Assembly: GCF_029626225.1 (NCBI RefSeq)
Contig: NZ_JARUBP010000001.1
Coordinates: forward strand, 6,758,001 to 6,822,000
Length of the DNA: 64,000 nt
Source: Asanoa sp. WMMD1127
Lineage (GTDB): Bacteria; Actinomycetota; Actinomycetes; Mycobacteriales; Micromonosporaceae
Direction: 5' to 3'
The notes beneath the pieces are model-generated. The model searched no databases. It was not told where the DNA came from and saw only the letters and a program-made list of their open reading frames with translations. Made by a program: the position numbers and the translations under genes. Below, piece by piece: positions 12,180 through 29,053 of this stretch. Position 1 is the stretch's first letter. Each line of letters begins with the position of its first letter.

Positions 12180-14102
12180 TCAACCGACTCGGCGGCGATC
12201 GTCGGGTTCGCGGGTCGTCGCGCCGCGGCGGTCTAGTAGTTCCAGCAGCGGTACGGCCACCCGCCGCGTGGTGTCGAGGGCCTGCCGGGCCTGGCTGAGG
12301 GTGAACGGCTGCGGGATCTGCCGCAGCACCTCGACCGCTCGATCGACCGAAGCGGGCGGCAGCACGATGCCGTCGGCGATCTTGACCAGGGCGCCGGCCC
12401 GGACGGCGGCGGCCAGCTCGCGGGGGCCGAGACCGAGCGTGCGCAGCCGGTCGGCGTCAGGTGCGTGGAACGGCCGCTCGCGTAGGTCCCCGTCGAGGTG
12501 ATCCAGCGCCTGCTGGATGGCCGCCGGCACCTGCGGGCCCCCGGGCCGGCTCACCCGGCCGTCGCGAGCGATCAACGGCGGGGTGACTAGCGCCTCGACC
12601 AGCGCGCGATCGGGCAACCCCAGCGCGCGGCGCAGCGCTTCGACCGGCATGCCCGGCTCGAGCGGATGGGCCGCCGCGTGGCGGTCGACCGCTTCCACGA
12701 GCCCTTCGCGGAGCCGAGCCCAGAGGGCCGGGTCCGCGAACCAGTCACCAGCAACCGGCTGCGCACCGGCGGAGGCGGCACCCGGCATGCCCGGATCGCC
12801 ACCCGTGCCACCGCGAGAGGTAGCAGCACCCCGCTCGCCCGTCGTGCCGCCGCCGGAAGGCGCCGCACCAGCCATACCCCGCTCGCCGACCGCACGGCCC
12901 GCGGATGGCGCCGCACCGCCCACGCCTCGCTCGCCGCCCGCGGGAGGTGCCGCGCCCAGCATGCGCAGTTGGGCGCCGGTCATCAGGCCGCGGCGGCGTA
13001 GTTCGTCGGCGGCGTCCGGGTGGCCGTCCATGGTGGTCAGTTCGGTCGCCCGGGCCGCCGCGGCGCCGCGGCGGCGGAGTGGCGGTGGTAGCGGGTCCAG
13101 CACGGTGACGCCGCCCGCTACGTGGTGGCGGCCCGGGTCGCGGAGCAGTGCGCGGTCGCCGATGCGCAGCGGCAGCGGCGTCCGCAGGCGTAGCCGCGCT
13201 GTGTCCTTGCCGAGCGGGCGCACACCCACCGCGACCGCGGCCGACCCCACGTGGAGCACCAGCGTCGCCGGCAGGTCGCTCGTGGGGTCGCCGTGGACCC
13301 GCACGTCGACCAGCTCCGTCAGGCGGAACGCGCCCGGTGTCAGCAGCGCGTCGCCGCGGCCCACCGCGTCTTTGGGCACGTGGCGCAGGTTGACCGCGAC
13401 CCGGGCCACCGCCTCGACGGAGGCGGCCGGGCGGCCGAGTGACTGCAACCCCTTGACCCGCACGCGGCGGTCGCCGAGCGCGAGCTCGTCACCCGCCCGC
13501 AGCGTGCCCGCGCCGAGCGTGCCGGTGACCACCGTGCCGCTGCCCTGGATCGTGAACGCCCGGTCGACCCACAGCCGGACCGGTGCGGCCGGGTCGGCCG
13601 GCGGCAGGCCGGCGACCAGCCGGTCGAGCGCCGACCGCAGGTCGGCGAGGCCCGCGCCGGTCGCGCCGCTGACGGCGACCGCCTCGACGGCGCCCAGGGA
13701 GGTCGCCGCGATCTCGTCGAGCGCCCGCCGGGTGGCCGGGCCCGGGTCGGCGAGGTCGGCGCGGGTGACCACCAGCAGGCCGTGGGTGACGCCGAGCGCG
13801 TCGAGGGCCGCCAGGTGTTCGGCGGACTGGGGCATCCAGCCCTCGTCGGCGCCCACGACCAGCATGGCGGCCGGGACCGGGCCGACGCCGGCCAGCATGT
13901 TGGGCACGAAGCGCTCGTGGCCGGGCACGTCGACGAACGCGAGCGTGGCGCCCGACGGCAGGTCGGTCCACGCGTAGCCGAGGTCGATGGTCATGCCGCG
14001 GCGCCGCTCCTCGGCCCAACGGTCGGGCTCCATGCCGGTGAGCGCGCGGACCAGCGTCGACTTGCCGTGGTCGACGTGACCCGCCGTGGCGACGACGTGC
14101 AC
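12180..14102 (-). CDS. selB: selenocysteine-specific elongation factor SelB
   Basis: 640 residues. The GTPase opens at once with GHVDHGKS (P-loop), followed by DVPGHE and TRAD; beta-barrel domains follow, then winged-helix repeats that bind the SECIS hairpin. SelB delivers Sec-tRNA to in-frame UGA codons. Its evident client is fdnG in this window. Residues near 420-485 are a Gly/Ala/Pro-rich insertion with repeated GERG and GAAPS elements, between the barrel domains and the winged helices. The GTG start at 14102 is only 36 bp from the divergent selD start; no Shine-Dalgarno is seen, but CAGAGT lies 6 bases upstream. selA is not adjacent. Confidence 0.95.
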   Translation of the reverse strand: MHVVATAGHVDHGKSTLVRALTGMEPDRWAEERRRGMTIDLGYAWTDLPSGATLAFVDVPGHERFVPNMLAGVGPVPAAMLVVGADEGWMPQSAEHLAALDALGVTHGLLVVTRADLADPGPATRRALDEIAATSLGAVEAVAVSGATGAGLADLRSALDRLVAGLPPADPAAPVRLWVDRAFTIQGSGTVVTGTLGAGTLRAGDELALGDRRVRVKGLQSLGRPAASVEAVARVAVNLRHVPKDAVGRGDALLTPGAFRLTELVDVRVHGDPTSDLPATLVLHVGSAAVAVGVRPLGKDTARLRLRTPLPLRIGDRALLRDPGRHHVAGGVTVLDPLPPPLRRRGAAAARATELTTMDGHPDAADELRRRGLMTGAQLRMLGAAPPAGGERGVGGAAPSAGRAVGERGMAGAAPSGGGTTGERGAATSRGGTGGDPGMPGAASAGAQPVAGDWFADPALWARLREGLVEAVDRHAAAHPLEPGMPVEALRRALGLPDRALVEALVTPPLIARDGRVSRPGGPQVPAAIQQALDHLDGDLRERPFHAPDADRLRTLGLGPRELAAAVRAGALVKIADGIVLPPASVDRAVEVLRQIPQPFTLSQARQALDTTRRVAVPLLELLDRRGATTREPDDRRRVG

Positions 14103-14138: not shown

Positions 14139-15137
14139 ATGACCTACCGGCTGACCCAGTACGCGCACGGCGGTGGCTGTGCCTGCAAGATCCCGCCCGG
14201 TGAGCTCGAGAGCGTCGTCGCGGGCCTGGTCGGTGCCACTCCCCCGGTCGGGCCGGGCGAGCTGCTGGTCGGGCTCGACGACGGTGACGACGCGGCGGTG
14301 GTGCGGATCGCCGGTGAGACCGCGGTGGTCGCCACGGCCGACTTCTTCACGCCCGTGCTCGACGACCCCTATGACTGGGGTCGGGTCGCGGCCGCCAACG
14401 CCCTCTCCGACGTCTATGCGATGGGCGGCACGCCGGTGGTCGCGGTCAACCTGCTCGGCTGGCCGCGGGACGTGCTGCCGATGGAGCTGGCCGCGCGGGC
14501 GCTGGCCGGCGGTCTGGACGTGGCCCGCGAGGCCGGCTGCCACGTCGCCGGTGGGCACAGCGTCGACGACCCGGAGCCGAAATATGGCATGGCGGTGACC
14601 GGCATCGCCGACCCGGCCAAGCTTCTGCGCAACGACGCCGGCAGCGAAGGTGTGCCGCTGACGCTGACCAAGCCGCTCGGCATCGGGGTGCTCAACAGCC
14701 GGCACAAGCAGACCGGGGAAGTCTTTCCGGAAGCGGTGGCGGCGATGACCACGCTCAACCGGGCCGCCTCGGAGGCGGCGCTCAAGGCCGGCGCCGTCTG
14801 CGCGACCGACGTGACCGGCTTCGGCCTGCTAGGCCACCTGCACAAGCTGGCCCGCGCCAGCGGCGTCACCGCCCGCCTGTCGGCGGCGGCCGTGCCCTAT
14901 CTGGACGGCGCCCGGGACGCGCTGGCCGCCGGCTATGTCAGCGGCGGCAGCAAGCGCAACCTCGACTGGGTCCGCCCGCACCTCGACCCCGGCGCCGCCG
15001 CCGAGGACGAGCTCCTCCTGCTCGCCGACGCCCAGACCTCGGGCGGCCTGCTGGTGGCCGGCGAGCTGCCGGGCTATCCGGTGGTCGGCGAGCTGGTCCC
15101 GGCCAGAACGGACGGCGTGACGCTGGAGGTCCGCTGA
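14139..15137 (+). CDS. selD: selenide, water dikinase (selenophosphate synthetase)
   Basis: 332 residues. It makes selenophosphate from selenide and ATP, the selenium donor for Sec-tRNA synthesis. The N-terminus LTQYAHGGGCACKIPP matches the E. coli active site, with Cys14, Cys16 and Lys17 in place of the catalytic Cys17/Cys19/Lys20; it is therefore the Cys form, with no Sec codon. The AIR-synthase-like fold follows (DDAAVV, TADFFTP, VAGGHSV, DVTGFGLLGH). It diverges from selB across 36 bp, an economical arrangement that should co-express both. AGG lies about 12 bases before ATG 14139; a leaderless start is also possible. Confidence 0.96.
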   Translation: MTYRLTQYAHGGGCACKIPPGELESVVAGLVGATPPVGPGELLVGLDDGDDAAVVRIAGETAVVATADFFTPVLDDPYDWGRVAAANALSDVYAMGGTPVVAVNLLGWPRDVLPMELAARALAGGLDVAREAGCHVAGGHSVDDPEPKYGMAVTGIADPAKLLRNDAGSEGVPLTLTKPLGIGVLNSRHKQTGEVFPEAVAAMTTLNRAASEAALKAGAVCATDVTGFGLLGHLHKLARASGVTARLSAAAVPYLDGARDALAAGYVSGGSKRNLDWVRPHLDPGAAAEDELLLLADAQTSGGLLVAGELPGYPVVGELVPARTDGVTLEVR

Positions 15138-22304: not shown

Positions 22305-23555
22305 TCAGGCGTCCTTGTCGTCGGCCGCCAATGCGGCGAGCACCTCGGAGCGGTCGGTGCGCGGCTTGGGCGCACGCGGGGCGCGGGCCGGCCGGTGGGC
22401 CGCGGTCGCCACGAACGCGGCCAGGGCCGTGGTGATCGGCACGGCGGCGATCAGGCCGAGCGTGCCGACGACGCTGCGGACGATCTCCTGGGCGATGAAC
22501 TCGGCGGTCAGCACCTCGCCGACCCCGCGCCCGCCGGCCACCACGAGCAGGAGGACAGGCAGGGACGCGCCGGCGTACGCCAGGACGATGGTGTTGACCG
22601 TCGAGGCGATGTGGGCCCGGCCCACCCGGGTCCCGCCCCGGTAGAGCTCGCGCCGGCTGAGCGACGGGTTGGCCCGGGCCAGCTCGCCGACCGTGGCCGC
22701 CTGGGTGACCGTGACGTCGTCGAGCACGCCGAGGGAACCGATGATGATGCCGGCCAGCAGCAGGCCGTGCAGGTCCACGTCGCCGTGCAGCAGGGAGAGG
22801 GTGATCGCGTTCTCGTCGCCGTACCCCGTCAGGTGGGTCAGCGCGATCGCCAGCGTGCCGATGCCACCGGCGAGCACGAGGCTGGCCAGGGTGCCGAGCA
22901 CCGCGACGGAGGTCTGCGCGCTGATGCCGTGGGTCAGGTAGAGGACGACGAACATGATCAACGCGGCGCCGGTGACCGCGATCAGCAGCGGCGGGCCGCC
23001 GCCGAGGATGGCGGGCAGCACGAAGCCGAGCAGCACGGCGAAGCTGACCGCGAGCCCGGCGAGAGCAGCCAGCCCGCGCCAGCGGCCGAACGCGACGATC
23101 GCGGCGGCGAACGCGACCACCAGCCAGAGCAGCGGCGATCCGCGCTGGTGGTCGGCGATCGTGTAGACGGTCGCGGTCGGGTCCTCGGCGTCGGTGAGCG
23201 GGGTGACGATCACCGCGTCGCCGGGCTCGATCCGCGGCGAACCGGGGCCGGACGGCAGGTCGGTCTCCCGCGTCTGGCCCTGGTCGGCGCCGGAGTCGAG
23301 CCGCACCGTCGCGACGCCGCAGGGTCCCGGGTCGGTCGTCCCCTCGGGCGTCGGCGGGCAGGCCTCGCTGACGACCTTGGTGACGGTGGCGTGGAAGCGC
23401 GGGACGGGATCGGCCTCGTCGGCCTTGGGCACGTCGCCCGGCCAGAGCAGGGCGGTGGCGATCCCGGTGACCAGGAACGCGGGCACGAGGATCGCGGCGA
23501 GGATGATCCGCAGACGGCGGGGCGCCCGCGGCGCGGGCTGGTGGTCGTGACCCAT
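22305..23555 (-). CDS. YibE/F-family membrane protein
   Basis: 416 residues. After an N-terminal helix and an external domain (about 45-135, with three Cys), seven or more hydrophobic helices follow; the conserved YibE/F block GSLGVLDDVTVTQAATV near residue 285 is clear. The function of this family is not established; it is thought to be a transporter-like membrane protein. ATG 23555 overlaps the stop of the NrfD-like gene (TGATG), so it is transcribed as the last gene of the formate dehydrogenase operon, though a functional tie is not shown. Confidence 0.85.
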   Translation of the reverse strand: MGHDHQPAPRAPRRLRIILAAILVPAFLVTGIATALLWPGDVPKADEADPVPRFHATVTKVVSEACPPTPEGTTDPGPCGVATVRLDSGADQGQTRETDLPSGPGSPRIEPGDAVIVTPLTDAEDPTATVYTIADHQRGSPLLWLVVAFAAAIVAFGRWRGLAALAGLAVSFAVLLGFVLPAILGGGPPLLIAVTGAALIMFVVLYLTHGISAQTSVAVLGTLASLVLAGGIGTLAIALTHLTGYGDENAITLSLLHGDVDLHGLLLAGIIIGSLGVLDDVTVTQAATVGELARANPSLSRRELYRGGTRVGRAHIASTVNTIVLAYAGASLPVLLLVVAGGRGVGEVLTAEFIAQEIVRSVVGTLGLIAAVPITTALAAFVATAAHRPARAPRAPKPRTDRSEVLAALAADDKDA

Positions 23556-24556
23556 CAGGCTGGCGCGTCTCCGCGGGCCGCGAGGCGTTCGCGCTGGGGC
23601 ACCACCGTGTATTTCGGGTCGACCGCCGACGCCTTGCCGGCCTCGAAAACGCCGAACCGGGTGGCCGCCGAGCCGGCCAGCAGCGCCACGCCGGCCAGGG
23701 CCGAGGCGACCCGGCTGCGCGCGCCGAGCAAGGCCCCGACGGCGCCGGTCGCGGTCAGCAGCCGGGCCGCGCGCAGGTAACGGCCGGCCTTGCCGGTGCG
23801 GTAGGGCTCGCTGAGCAGACCCATCCGGTGCTCGACGCCGTGCGTGGCGGTCAGCTCGAGGGCGGCGCCGGCGACCGCGAGGGTCCGGGCCGGGCCGGCC
23901 TCGTGGACCGGCGCGCCGATCAGCCCGGCGGCGCCGCCGCTGGCCAGCGCGCTGCCGGCGAAGACGAAGGGCAGCCGCGGGTACGCCTCGTGCCAGGACG
24001 GTGTCGCGGTGTCGGCGAGCAGCACGGCGGTGTAGGTGGCCAGGGCGGGCGCGGTGGCCGCGGCGGCCAGCCCGCCGACCCGGCCCGCGGCCGGCAGGGC
24101 GCGGGCGGCCAGCCCGACCACGCCGTCGCGGGGCATCCAGGGCGCGGCCTCGGCGACCGCCGCCACCCCCGCGGCCGCGCCGAACGCGCTGAGGATCCAG
24201 GTGCCCATCGACATCGGCGAGGTCGGCTTGGCGACGCGGAGCATGTTGAGGAAGCGCGCCGGCCGCCCGAGGTCCTTCACGAGGAGGTAGCCGCTGGCCC
24301 CCACGGCGGCCAGGGCGGTGACCCGGCCGGTGGCGCGCAGCGCGGGCCGCCCGGTGAGGTCGGCGCCGGCGGCGACCAGGGCAGCGCCGGCGGCCAGGCC
24401 GCCGGTGAAGAGGTAGGCGGAAATGTCGTGGGTCCAGACGGGCGGCTTGACCACGGGCCGGCCGTAGTAGGACTGGAAGTCGGCGGGCGGCACCATGACC
24501 CGCTCGCCGCGGACCTTCTTGCCGCTGGTGTGCGCGGCGTGGTCGGCCCTGGTCAC
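23555..24556 (-). CDS. NrfD/PsrC-like membrane anchor of formate dehydrogenase
   Basis: 333 residues with about eight helices. The early segment WTHDISAYLFTGGLAAGAAL and the loop KDLGRPARFLNMLRVAKPTSPMS, read in pieces, are typical of NrfD/PsrC quinone-interacting subunits. It would take electrons from the iron-sulfur subunit to the quinone pool, replacing the cytochrome b FdnI. The GTG at 24556 overlaps the fdnH stop by four bases. There is a ten-residue polar leader before FQSYYGRPVVKPPVW; an internal ATG at VMVPPADF is an alternative start. Confidence 0.88.
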   Translation of the reverse strand: MTRADHAAHTSGKKVRGERVMVPPADFQSYYGRPVVKPPVWTHDISAYLFTGGLAAGAALVAAGADLTGRPALRATGRVTALAAVGASGYLLVKDLGRPARFLNMLRVAKPTSPMSMGTWILSAFGAAAGVAAVAEAAPWMPRDGVVGLAARALPAAGRVGGLAAAATAPALATYTAVLLADTATPSWHEAYPRLPFVFAGSALASGGAAGLIGAPVHEAGPARTLAVAGAALELTATHGVEHRMGLLSEPYRTGKAGRYLRAARLLTATGAVGALLGARSRVASALAGVALLAGSAATRFGVFEAGKASAVDPKYTVVPQRERLAARGDAPA

Positions 24557-25482
24557 GGTCGGCGACCCAGGAACGCGACGACGGCCGCGGCCGCCATGCT
24601 CAACGCTGCCACGCCCGCATGCTTCCACATGCTCGGCAGGTCGCGCGTGGTGACCACCGGATCGGGCGGCAGGCCGTAGACCTCGGGCTCGTCGAGGAGC
24701 AGGAAGAAGGCGCCGTCGCCGCCGACGCCGTCGGCCGGGTCGTGGCCGTAGAGGCGGGCCTCGCCGACGCCCCGCTGGTGCAGCACCTCGACCCGCTTGG
24801 CGGCCCGGTCGCGCAGCTCGTCCAGCTCGCCGTACTGGATCGACTCGGTCGGGCAGGCCTGGGCGCAGGCCGGGGTCATGCCCTCGCCGATGCGGTCGTA
24901 GCAGAGCGTGCACTTCCAGGCCCGGCCGTCGCCCTCGCGCCGGTCGATCACGCCGTAGGGGCACGCCGAGACGCAGTAGCCACAGCCGTTGCAGATGTCC
25001 TCCTGCACCACAACGGTCCCGAACTCGGTGCGGAACAACGAACCGGTCGGGCACACGTCGAGGCAGGCGGCGTGCGTGCAGTGCTTGCAGACGTTCGACA
25101 TCATCAGCCAGCGCAGGTCGCGGTCCTCCCGGCCGTCGGCGCCCGGCAGCGTGGTCGACGGCATGCCGAGGAACTGTGTCGACGCCGTCCGCTCCGCCTC
25201 GCGCAGCACGTCCATCGACGCTTCGCTCTTCGGAGCCTGCTCGACGAACGCCACGTGCCGCCAGGTGTTGGCCGACAGCTGGCCCGTGTTGTCGTAGGAC
25301 ATGCCGAGCAGGTCGAAGCCGTCGTCGGGTACGGCGTTCCACTCCTTGCAGGCCACCTCGCAGGCCTTGCAGCCGATGCAGACGCTGGTGTCGGTGAAGA
25401 AGCCCATCCGCGGCGGCGCGTCGACGTAGCCCGCGTCGGGCGCCGGGTCGATCGGGCCGTAGAAGCTGTTGGGTCCGGCCAT
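24553..25482 (-). CDS. fdnH: formate dehydrogenase iron-sulfur (beta) subunit
   Basis: 309 residues. Four Cys clusters are present in order: CIGCKACEVACKEWN, CKHCTHAACLDVCPTG, CNGCGYCVSACPYG, and CTLCYDR with CAQACP. These would bind four 4Fe-4S centres as in E. coli FdnH/FdoH. A C-terminal hydrophobic helix (about 285-305) anchors it in the membrane. It relays electrons from the selenoprotein FdnG to the NrfD-like subunit. ATG 25482 overlaps the fdnG stop (TGATG); a GTG one codon earlier (25485) is also possible. GGGGGA lies just upstream. Confidence 0.94.
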   Translation of the reverse strand: MAGPNSFYGPIDPAPDAGYVDAPPRMGFFTDTSVCIGCKACEVACKEWNAVPDDGFDLLGMSYDNTGQLSANTWRHVAFVEQAPKSEASMDVLREAERTASTQFLGMPSTTLPGADGREDRDLRWLMMSNVCKHCTHAACLDVCPTGSLFRTEFGTVVVQEDICNGCGYCVSACPYGVIDRREGDGRAWKCTLCYDRIGEGMTPACAQACPTESIQYGELDELRDRAAKRVEVLHQRGVGEARLYGHDPADGVGGDGAFFLLLDEPEVYGLPPDPVVTTRDLPSMWKHAGVAALSMAAAAVVAFLGRRP

Positions 25483-28400
25483 CACTCCCCCGCTCCGGGC
25501 GTTTCCAGTGGCGCGTAGTGCGAGGCGTCCAGCCCCGCCCGACGCAGGTAGTCGGCGACGTAGTCGAGCAGCGCCGGCCCGGTCGGGCGCCGGCCGGGGC
25601 GGATGTCGCAGGTGCCGACCTTGCTCTCCTGGATCAGCACGTTGGGGTCGAGGGTGATGCCGAACAGGTCGTTGGCCGAGTCACCGGTGACCAGACCCGA
25701 ACCGCCCCAGTGGTACGGCAGCCAGATCTGGTGGATGACGCGCCCGTCGAGCCGCAGCGGGCGCAGCCGGGCGGTCACCATGACCCGCGCCTCGACGGCG
25801 GCCCGGCCGGTGACGACGTGGGCCCAGCCCAGGTGCTCGAGCCCACGCTCCTCGGCCAGGTCCGGCGAGACCTCGACGAACATCGCCGGCTGGAGCTCGG
25901 AGAGATAGGCCAGCTGCCGGCTCATCCCGCCGGCGGTGTGGTGCTCGGTGAGCCGGCTGGTGGTGAAGACGTAGGGGAAGACCTCGCTGTGCGGCTCCGG
26001 CGGGGCGGGGTTGAGCTGGTTGTCGGGGCGGTCGTAGACCTTGCGGGTCGGGTTGGCCTGCTGCGCGTAGAGCGGGTTGCGCAGCGGCGACTCGGCGGGC
26101 TCGTAATGGGTCGGCAGCGGACCGTCGATGAGGCCGCTCGGCGCGTAGAGCCAACCCTTGCCGTCGCCCTGCATGATGAACGCGTCGTCGCCCGCGATCG
26201 CGGCCACGCCGGATGCGTCGTGGGGCGGCCGGTAGGACGGGTCCTTGGTCTTCTCGAAGTCGGGCACGTCGTGACCCGTCCACTCGCCCTTGTCGGCGTC
26301 CCACCAGACGTAGGCCTTCTTGTCGCTCCACGGGCGGCCCTGTGGGTCGGCGGAGGCGCGGTTGTAGAGGATGCGGCGGTTCGATGGCCAGGCCCAGCCC
26401 CACTCGGGCGCGACCCAGCTCTGCTCGCTGCCGGGCTTGCGGCGGGCGGCCTGGTTGACGCCGTCGGCGAACACTCCACTGTAGATCCAGCAGCCACAGG
26501 CGGTGGAGCCGTCGTCCTTGAGGGCGGTGAAGTTGTTCACCGGCGTGCCGGTGGCGGTCTCGTAGCCGTTGATCTCCTTGAGGACCGCCTCCGCGCTGGG
26601 CTCGTCGTGCGCGCCCGCGGTCGGGTAATGCCAGGCGAGGTGTTGGACCGCCCGGTCACGCTCCAGTGTGGACGTGGCGAGGCGTTCGCGGACCAGGCGG
26701 CCCAGGTGGTAGAAGAACCAGAGTTCCGAGCGGCAGTCCTGCGGCGGGTCGAGGGCCTTCTCGCGCCACTGCAGCATGCGCTGGGTCTGGGTGAACGTGC
26801 CCTCCTTCTCCACATGGGACGCCGCCGGGAGGAAGAAGACCTCGGTGCGGCACTCCTCCGGCACGATCTCGCCGGTCGCGATCTCGGGCGAGTCCTTCCA
26901 GAACGTCGCGCTCTCGATCATGTAGAGGTCGCGGACGACGAGCCAGTCGAGGTTGGCCATGCCGAGCCGCTGCGCCCGCCCGTGGGCCGAGCCGACCGCC
27001 GGGTTCTGGCCGAGCAGGAAGTAGCCCTTCACCTTCCCGTCGATCATGTTGAGCACCTGCTGGTAGGTGCCGTGGTCGCCGGTCAGGCGGGGCAGGTAGC
27101 CGTAGCCCCAGTCGTTGTCGGCCGTCGCGTGCGCGCCGTAGTAGGCCTTGAGCATGCTGACCGCGTACGACCTGGCGTTGGCCCAGAAGCCCTTCTGTCC
27201 TGGATGCCTTATCGCGTCGACCCACTGGTCGAAGGTCTGGTGCTGCTGGAAGTGCGGCATCGGCAGGTAGCCGGGGAGCAGGTTGAACAGCGTCGGGATG
27301 TCGGTGGAGCCCTGGATGCTGGCGTGGCCGCGCAGGGCCATGATGCCGCCGCCGGGGCGGCCCATGTTGCCCAGCAGGAGCTGGATGATGGCGCCGGTGC
27401 GGATGTATTGGACGCCGACGCTGTGCTGGGTCCAGCCGACGGAGTAGACCAGCGCGGTGGTGCGCTCGCGGCCGGAGTTGCGGGTCCACGCCTCGCAGAC
27501 CTTGGCGAACTGGTCCTGGCTCACGCCGCAGACCTGCTCGACCAGCTCCGGGGTGTAACGGGCGTAGTGGCGCTTGAGGATCTGGTAGACACAGCGCGGG
27601 TGCTGGAGGGTCTCGTCGCGCTGGGTCTCGCTCGGGATGGGCGGGCCGTGCGACTCCTGCTCGAGGCCGGCGCCGGTCTCCCGGGCGGCGTGCGTGTCAC
27701 CCTCGTCGGGCGACTGCTCCTCGTGGCCCTGGTATTGCCAGCTGACCGGGTCGTAGGTGCCCGTCTCCTCGTTGTAGCCGGAGAACAGGCCGCCCAGGTC
27801 CTCGGTGTCCTGGAAGTCCTCGCTGACGATGGTGGCCGCGTTGGTGTAGGCGAGCACGTAGTCCCGGAAGTCCAGGTCGTTGCGCAGGATGTAGTTGATC
27901 ACCCCGCCCAGGAACGCGATGTCGGAGCCGACCCGCAGCGCGACGTACTCGTCGGCGACCGCGCTGGTCCGGGTGAACCGGGGGTCGACGTGGATGACCG
28001 TCGCGCCGCGCTTCTTCGCCTCCATCACCCACTGGAACCCGACCGGGTGCGCCTCGGCCATGTTGGACCCTTGGATGACGATGCAGTCAGCGTTGGCCAG
28101 GTCCTGCTGGAACCCGGTGGCCCCGCCACGGCCGAAGCTGGTCCCCAGACCGGGGACGGTGGAGGAGTGTCAAATACGGGCCTGGTTCTCGATCTGGATC
28201 GCGCCCATCGCCGTGAAGAGCTTCTTGATCAGGTAGTTCTCTTCGTTGTCGAGCGTGGCGCCGCCCAGGCTCGAGATGCCCAGGGTGCGGTTGAGCGGCC
28301 GGCCCTCGTCGTCCTTGTCCTCCCAGGTCTCCTCGCGGACCTTGACCACCCGGTCGGCGATCATCTCCATCGCGGTGGGAAGGTCGAGCTCTTCCCAGTC

Positions 28401-28739
28401 GGTGCCGTAGGGCCTGCGGTAGAGCACCGTCCTGATCCGGCGGTCGCTGGTGACCAGGCTCTTGGAGGCGGAGCCCTTGGGGCAGAGGCGGCCGCGCGAG
28501 ACGGGGCTGTCCGGGTCGCCCTCGATCTGGGTGACCTTGCCGTCCTCGACGAAGACGCGCTGGCCGCAGCCGACGGCACAATAGGGACAGACGGACCGCG
28601 CCATCGAGTCGGCGCTCTTGGTGCGCGGCTCGAGCGCGTCGGTGCGCGCGGAACGGGCGGCGTGCCCGCGTCCCAGCGGGTCAGTGCCGGTGAGCTGCCG
28701 GTAAACCGGCCACCCCTCGATCCACGTCCGGACCCCCAC
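25482..28739 (-). CDS. fdnG: selenocysteine-containing formate dehydrogenase alpha subunit (in-frame TGA = Sec190)
   Basis: The gene reads through an in-frame TGA at 28172-28170, giving 1085 residues. Before it, the N-terminal 4Fe-4S motif CPYCAVGC and GRLCPKG bind the proximal cluster; residues NQARI precede the TGA, and HSSTVPGLGTSFGRGG follows. This is the conserved NQARI-U-HS active site of FdnG/FdoG, in which Sec ligates molybdenum or tungsten. The C-terminal molybdopterin-dinucleotide domain is intact. A 17-base hairpin with a GGUCU loop begins 12 bases after the TGA. The start is GTG 28739 with TAGGGT 6 bases upstream. No TTG/Cys alternative exists, so the enzyme depends on SelB and SelD in this window. 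If TGA were a stop, only 189 residues would be made. Confidence 0.96.
28141..28157 (-). promoter_or_regulatory. bSECIS hairpin in fdnG mRNA
   Basis: The RNA GUCCCC-GGUCU-GGGGAC forms a perfect 6-bp stem and pentaloop, starting 12 bases after the UGA at 28172-28170. E. coli fdhF has its apical SECIS stem 11 bases after the UGA with the same GGUCU loop core, which SelB recognises. Base pairing and loop are seen directly; SelB binding is inferred. Confidence 0.88.
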
Positions 28740-29053
28740 GGACCCACCCTAGATCAGCGCTGCTGGCGCCGCACCCGCTCTACCCCTCCCACCCACCCAC
28801 CCCTCTGCAGATCTTGGTAAGTCACTGTCGCCATAGCTGTGCCATAGCTGCATTTTTACCTAGATCTGTCGGTGGAGGCCGCGGGAGCGGAGCGCGCGGA
28901 GGAGTTGGGTCGCGGCGGGCATCGCCATCGCACCATGAGAGGGCACGGCGTGTCCGGTCGCTGCCCCGGTGCCGAAAGGGCGGTCCTCGGGGACAGCATC
29001 CGGCCGTGCGGTGGCCCTACGCCGTCGCCGGTGCGGTTCACCTCGGCGCGTCG
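28740..29053. promoter_or_regulatory. fdnG upstream region with long inverted repeat and tandem 11-mer
   Basis: This 314-bp gap has no credible gene. TAGGGT (28751-28746) is a -10 candidate 6 bases before the fdnG GTG. CAGATCTTGGTAA at 28808-28820 and TTACCTAGATCTG at 28856-28868 form an inverted repeat matching at 12 of 13 positions, with a 35-base spacer. Inside the spacer, GCCATAGCTGT (28830-28840) is followed directly by GCCATAGCTGC (28841-28851). The block is AT-rich against its surroundings and looks like an operator or regulatory hairpin. Positions 28870-29053 show nothing recognisable. Confidence 0.6.

Follow-up and report, generated by a model that had tools for sequence, protein, structure and literature searches.

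The window, meaning the whole 64,000-nucleotide (64-kb) stretch of Asanoa sp. WMMD1127 DNA that was analysed, carries a gene for what is almost certainly a selenocysteine (Sec)-containing, FdnG-like respiratory formate dehydrogenase, in which UGA190 would be decoded by SelB-carried Sec-tRNA(Sec) with the aid of a hairpin. Decoding very probably follows the ordinary SelA/B/C/D route, and the genes present point to active Sec use in this organism. The case for Sec decoding rests on three things: homology, a TGA that relatives conserve, and covariation within the hairpin. The gene and its interrupting codon are:

25482–28739, minus strand: fdhA, alpha subunit of an fdnG-like formate dehydrogenase, 1085 aa including the predicted Sec190 (NF041513, PDB 1kqf)
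28170–28172, minus strand: in-frame TGA, putative Sec codon, residue 190 (1kqf alignment, relatives)

The minus-strand frame of fdhA runs from a GTG start at 28739 to a stop at 25484–25482, with the TGA at 28172–28170 as its one interruption, in the residue context NQARI-U-HSSTV (U = 190). Its product matches the NCBIfam model NF041513 (formate_DH_Act) at 1977.5 bits over model positions 2–1066 of 1067, against a curated cut-off of 1400 bits, and scores 962 bits on TIGR01553 (formate dehydrogenase-N alpha). Among solved structures the best match is E. coli FdnG (PDB 1kqf, E 1.1e-206), whose X (Sec) column aligns with residue 190, so that the placement of the TGA at the FdnG Sec position in an earlier, sequence-only reading is exact to the base. 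Both features by which a Sec formate dehydrogenase alpha subunit was recognised, a score above the NF041513 cut-off and a UGA at the metal-ligand column, are present. Among the matches listed, the closest relative is fdhA of Asanoa ishikariensis, at 88% identity.

The sequence-only reading had also described a frame open for 190 codons before the TGA and almost 900 after it; the latter figure stands, at 895, and the former becomes 189 when counted from the GTG at 28739. From base composition, the chance of 895 stop-free codons is ~1e-6. Long open frames are nevertheless weak evidence at this GC content, because an antisense open frame of 1100 codons (25518–28820, plus strand) spans all of fdhA, most likely as a by-product of high-GC codon usage.

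Conservation of the interruption is complete in the closest loci: the TGA stands at the homologous site in 80/80 relative loci, these being the best 80 of 588 confirmed from one search, with a few organisms contributing two. In a phylum sample of 246 genomes, 44 exceed the NF041513 cut-off, of which 43 have the TGA and one (G038) does not. A SelA match was found in 42 of these 43 (partial in G170, missing in G036), and none was found in G038. A genus of the same order, g3, to which G038 belongs, shows a similar association, with 62 of 118 genomes over the family cut-off, 59 with the TGA and three without; SelA exceeds its cut-off in 55/59 TGA genomes versus 0/59 of the others. The TGA was read in sequence in 42/43 phylum-sample genomes (not G032) and 28/59 of g3, the rest being taken from listed in-match stops; some matches list a second stop, the TGA of G350 lies on a separate contig piece, and the locus sets may count the same species twice.

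The three g3 copies without the TGA (L102, L132 and L133) have TGC at the site, pass the NF041513 cut-off and possess no such hairpin, and their genomes yielded no match to SelA, nor did selC or selD exceed the cut-off in them. These Cys copies form a deep, separate branch, the nearest other copy being 0.77 substitutions per site away, which rejects recent Sec-to-Cys conversion; they consequently show association, not loss of the hairpin. Five TGA genomes gave no full SelA match (G338, G359, G341 and G327 of g3, and G036 of the phylum sample), which counts against the Sec reading; all are drafts, and four of the five retain selC and selD, with G327 having none of selA, selC and selD. In G341, a SelA fragment covers positions 2–105 at 58 bits.

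The genes for Sec synthesis and insertion are divided between the window and a distant part of the same contig. Those in the window, which are divergently oriented and lie ~10 kb downstream of fdhA, are:

12180–14102, minus strand: selB, Sec-specific elongation factor, 640 aa (TIGR00475; SelB winged helix PF09107)
14148–15137, plus strand: selD, selenophosphate synthetase, Cys form (TIGR00476; start uncertain)

Both had been recognised from the letters, and the model scores agree (selB 275.9 bits, cut-off 242; selD 382 bits, cut-off 125). Absence of selA or tRNA-Sec from the genome had been named beforehand as grounds for giving up the Sec reading, and both are present: selA is matched at C1:1798114-1799373 (440 bits against a cut-off of 268), and tRNA-Sec (selC; 75.1 bits, gathering 47, anticodon TCA) lies at C1:1799413-1799504, separated by 39 bases from the 5′ end of that match. 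The Sec-decoding trait, tested as the presence of selA, selB, selC and selD, is complete in this genome. A second match to the tRNA-Sec model occurs at G000:C1:6404716-6404802 on the minus strand (locus L002; 49.5 bits against a gathering value of 47), and ARAGORN called no tRNA in that locus.

The element expected to direct insertion lies shortly after the TGA:

28141–28157, minus strand: candidate SECIS hairpin GTCCCC-GGTCT-GGGGAC (stem 28157–28152 / 28146–28141, loop GGTCT 28151–28147)

It starts 12 bases 3′ of the TGA, with 18 bases from TGA to loop, and is the sole 6-bp Watson–Crick hairpin with an RGTYT loop on either strand of the window; after mononucleotide shuffling of the window (100 runs), such hairpins numbered 0.17 on average and two at most. 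The published bacterial SECIS model, as set out in the accessible part of PMC13188914, specifies an apical loop of 3–9 nt, an upper stem of 4–16 bp, G in loop position 1 or 2, 16–37 nt from UGA to apical loop and a minimum free energy of ≤ -7.5 kcal/mol; the window hairpin has a 5-nt loop with G first, 6 bp, a distance of 18 nt and -14.7 kcal/mol. Folding energy was rejected as evidence for a SECIS, since 128 of 200 shuffles fold equally well or better and the shuffle mean of -16.0 leaves it without discriminating power here.

Covariation is more informative. Across 148 copies the loop reads GGTCT in 138, AGTCT in seven and AGTTT in three, and, out of six stem positions, one shows a single mispair. 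Between codons +5 and +9 the wobble bases are paired in 148/148 (C-G 78, T-A 41, G-C 15, T-G 11, G-T 3), and pairing between codons +6 and +8 is equally complete (C-G 139, G-C 8, T-G 1). Among 68 distinct 30-mers, +5/+9 form Watson–Crick pairs in 58, whereas 10,000 shuffles averaged 24 and never exceeded 39; no covariation signal came from the outermost stem pair in the same set (53 observed, 53 expected). Mapped by parsimony onto a 132-copy tree, two-sided changes number eight at the first pair (+5/+9) and three, from C-G to G-C, at the second (+6/+8). Since most copies differ at codons +5 and +9 by silent changes alone, it is the RNA that is selected. A longer lower stem of the E. coli kind was rejected, the consensus fold of 117 distinct sequences retaining the 6-bp hairpin only, and neither this consensus nor the window fold has a bulge in the 6-bp stem, such as the bulged U of the fdhF type. 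In more distant FdnG-type TGA copies, seven of 24 (L173–L175, L180–L182 and L192) carry GCTTT, GCGTT or GCTCT at +19 to +23, where the others carry RGTYT letters; the SECIS of these seven may be shifted or of another form.

The strongest synonymous constraint in the gene lies outside the hairpin:

28173–28175, minus strand: ATT codon for Ile189, immediately before the UGA; its synonymous choice is strongly constrained in relatives

When codon choice was compared across 1002 columns in 133 copies (two of 135, shorter than 950 aa, being left out), this was the most biased column, with ATT in 107, ATA in 23, ATC in two and ATG in one. At 15 other conserved isoleucine columns of the same genes ATC makes up 83–99%, and it accounts for ~95% of other isoleucines. 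The next most biased columns, +7 (the loop), +9, +5 and +6, are those of the hairpin, with codon -2 seventh. In 148 copies the counts are ATT 108, ATA 36, ATC 3 and ATG 1, whereas the codon usage of these genes would give 133.7 ATC. The tree shows seven exchanges between ATT and ATA and two origins of ATC; even allowing for the relatedness of the copies, this repetition argues against a single accident of inheritance. Among 26 more distant FdnG-type copies (ATA 17, GTT 7, GTC 1, TTG 1) one C-ending codon was observed versus 14.1 expected, and among 16 cytoplasmic-type FdhA copies (TTA 5, TTG 6, CTT 3, GTT 2) none versus 4.4. Thermomicrobium roseum, in one record, has ATA.

The constraint has clear boundaries. 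It was not seen in Cys copies, where a codon ending in C occurs in 7/17 of those that lie outside the first group (3.2 expected) and the three of the first group have GTG. GTC precedes the UGA in E. coli fdhF, fdnG and fdoG, and in the TGA-bearing alphaproteobacterium Indioceanicola, which rejects a universal formate dehydrogenase rule. Avoidance of C before Sec UGA codons in general was likewise rejected, as a hand count of the listing of 22 Sec-SelD sites gave GGC at 11, GGT at six and GGG at five; six of the 28 TGA-bearing SelD loci yielded no site in the motif scan. Scans of further 40-locus sets found no site in L196 (1/40) or in L207, L209 and L232 (3/40), and L237–L240, with a spurious motif match only, were excluded from the counts. 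Taken together, these exceptions place the constraint in Actinomycetota formate dehydrogenase genes, with one Thermomicrobium, and not in Sec insertion generally, and its absence at SelD counts against a simple ribosome rule for C before UGA. Nor is it supported that C in this position spoils the hairpin, computed stem pairing being 0.84 as found and 0.87 with C; with C at the last base of the preceding codon, mean computed pairing from -6 to the UGA rises modestly, from 0.37 to 0.49 (131 copies).

It is a real possibility, put forward tentatively, that the Actinomycetota formate dehydrogenase recoding signal reaches 5′ of the UGA, with the codon that occupies the ribosomal P site as the UGA reaches the A site restricted to mostly rare, A/U-rich synonyms (AUU, AUA, GUU, UUA, UUG, CUU) and AUC, GUC, GUG, CUC and CUG shunned. 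Such a codon could reduce release-factor action at the UGA, stall the ribosome long enough for SelB to load, or prevent base-pairing around the UGA; as the shunned codons are the common ones, pausing or an influence of the P site on termination would likewise agree with the pattern. The influence of 5′ codon context on termination is the subject of existing papers. In the accessible literature (PMC4513850, PMC3834832, PMC12013277, PMC13188914, PMC8659212 and PMC8704476, with subscription journals mostly outside it), no mention was found of a constraint on the codon before a bacterial Sec UGA, which is weak evidence of novelty. The upstream codon is not part of the bacterial SECIS model as given in the accessible part of PMC13188914; if functional, it would sharpen the prediction of selenoproteins and be relevant to how Sec insertion outcompetes termination.

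Three other accounts of the in-frame UGA can be weighed against this body of evidence. In the one that survives best, the Sec enzyme would be made only when selenium is plentiful, with termination at the UGA otherwise, and truncation or a polar effect on fdhB would be regulatory. Selenium-dependent removal of formate in Actinomycetospora, described in the accessible part of PMC7176365, lends this some support, as does the constraint on the preceding codon, which the hairpin does not explain; it is nonetheless improbable, no sequence feature having been found that favours regulation over plain recoding. Read-through of the UGA by a near-cognate tRNA (e.g. Trp), with no SECIS-directed Sec insertion, is much less probable still, given the covarying hairpin at the SECIS position, the tRNA-Sec with its TCA anticodon, and the near one-to-one occurrence of SelA and the TGA enzyme in g3; the metal-ligand position of known enzymes, moreover, holds Sec or Cys. 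That the TGA is an ordinary nonsense mutation, in a dead gene or one with a truncated product, agrees with a plain six-frame reading, which breaks fdhA into separate frames of 189 and 859 aa, but this least credible account is ruled out, together with chance, by the covariation and by the conservation of the TGA in the best 80 of 588 loci, with protein similarity on both sides, and is opposed also by its position on the FdnG Sec column and by the four sel genes. The expectation that automated annotation would split such a gene did not hold: NF041513 models this protein, and among 148 plasmid records with a relative, six were opened, four of which have the TGA and three of these are annotated, each with one uninterrupted CDS across it (RefSeq records of Arthrobacter, Tsukamurella and Thermomicrobium), in a small sample and a gene table that does not mark pseudogenes.

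Under Sec insertion, the preferred reading, SelD would make selenophosphate and SelA would convert the charged tRNA, while SelB with Sec-tRNA(Sec) would bind, and be recruited by, the hairpin starting 12 nt downstream of UGA190 as the mRNA is translated. The inserted Sec190 would be a ligand of the Mo/W-pterin, and formate oxidation would pass electrons to quinone via the beta and NrfD-type subunits, encoded next to fdhA:

24553–25485, minus strand: fdhB, 4Fe-4S beta subunit (TIGR01582, homologues in relative loci)
23555–24499, minus strand: fdhC, NrfD-type membrane anchor (Pfam PF03916, 61.8 bits; start estimated by eye)
22305–23555, minus strand: YibE/F-family membrane protein, after fdhC (PF07907, 249 bits)

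FdhB has a hydrophobic C-terminal segment (by eye) and scores 179 bits on TIGR01582, under the cut-off of 334.7, which is a further point against the assignment as a whole. In the best 80 of 588 loci, homologues of fdhB occur in 79 and of fdhC in 71, several of the latter shortened. The YibE/F gene was rejected as a conserved neighbour of Sec formate dehydrogenases, being present in 1/80 loci, that of Asanoa ishikariensis only; the Actinomycetospora FDH1 cluster also lists an unspecified permease, in the accessible part of PMC7176365.

E. coli FdnG is periplasmic and Tat-exported. By eye, the 50 residues that precede CPYC in the fdhA product (28590–28739, minus strand) contain no RR; a loose RR pattern occurs in 6/118 relatives, and in the five viewed it was not followed by a clearly hydrophobic stretch (by eye). 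As no Tat signal was seen, the active site of the Asanoa enzyme may, unlike that of FdnG, face the cytoplasm; an FdnG-like enzyme with an NrfD-type anchor in this orientation is a guess.

Set beside known systems, the Asanoa locus is an ordinary, well-supported further case of a known kind of Sec formate dehydrogenase, and the gene itself adds another example of a widespread selenoenzyme. No difference from NF041513 was detected in the protein, a model that the Cys copies L102, L132 and L133 also pass, without the hairpin. FDH1 of Actinomycetospora chiangmaiensis, in the accessible part of PMC7176365, has a Sec-containing FdhA1 of 1078 aa, with SelA and SelB listed alongside; the two enzymes are alike in size, Sec and three subunits, and in Asanoa selA and selC are separated from fdhA by ~5 Mb along the contig coordinates, or ~3 Mb should the contig be circular, with only selB and selD nearby. 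Corynebacterium aurimucosum likewise combines an actinobacterial UGA-containing fdnG with a full sel set, there described as clustered (fdnG with selABD and selC; accessible part of PMC2830990), and Actinobacteria were reported as rich in selenoprotein families in 2006 (PMC1794560, in its accessible part).

The comparison with E. coli concerns the RNA. The fdhF SECIS has the same GGUCU loop at the same 18 nt from the UGA, so the likeness in placement claimed by the sequence-only reading is borne out, and fdnG and fdoG have the loop letters AGUCU, also 18 nt after the UGA. An fdhF-type SECIS has a bulged U in its upper stem; the actinobacterial copies differ in their uninterrupted 6-bp stem and in having no conserved longer stem. 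The Asanoa hairpin probably works like the fdhF element and is not identical to it, and the codon before the UGA is ATT in Asanoa where the three E. coli genes have GTC. The value of these genes lies in their use as a comparative system, in which silent sites in many GC-rich genomes report the mRNA bases needed for recoding; this comparison confirms the short hairpin and points to the upstream codon.
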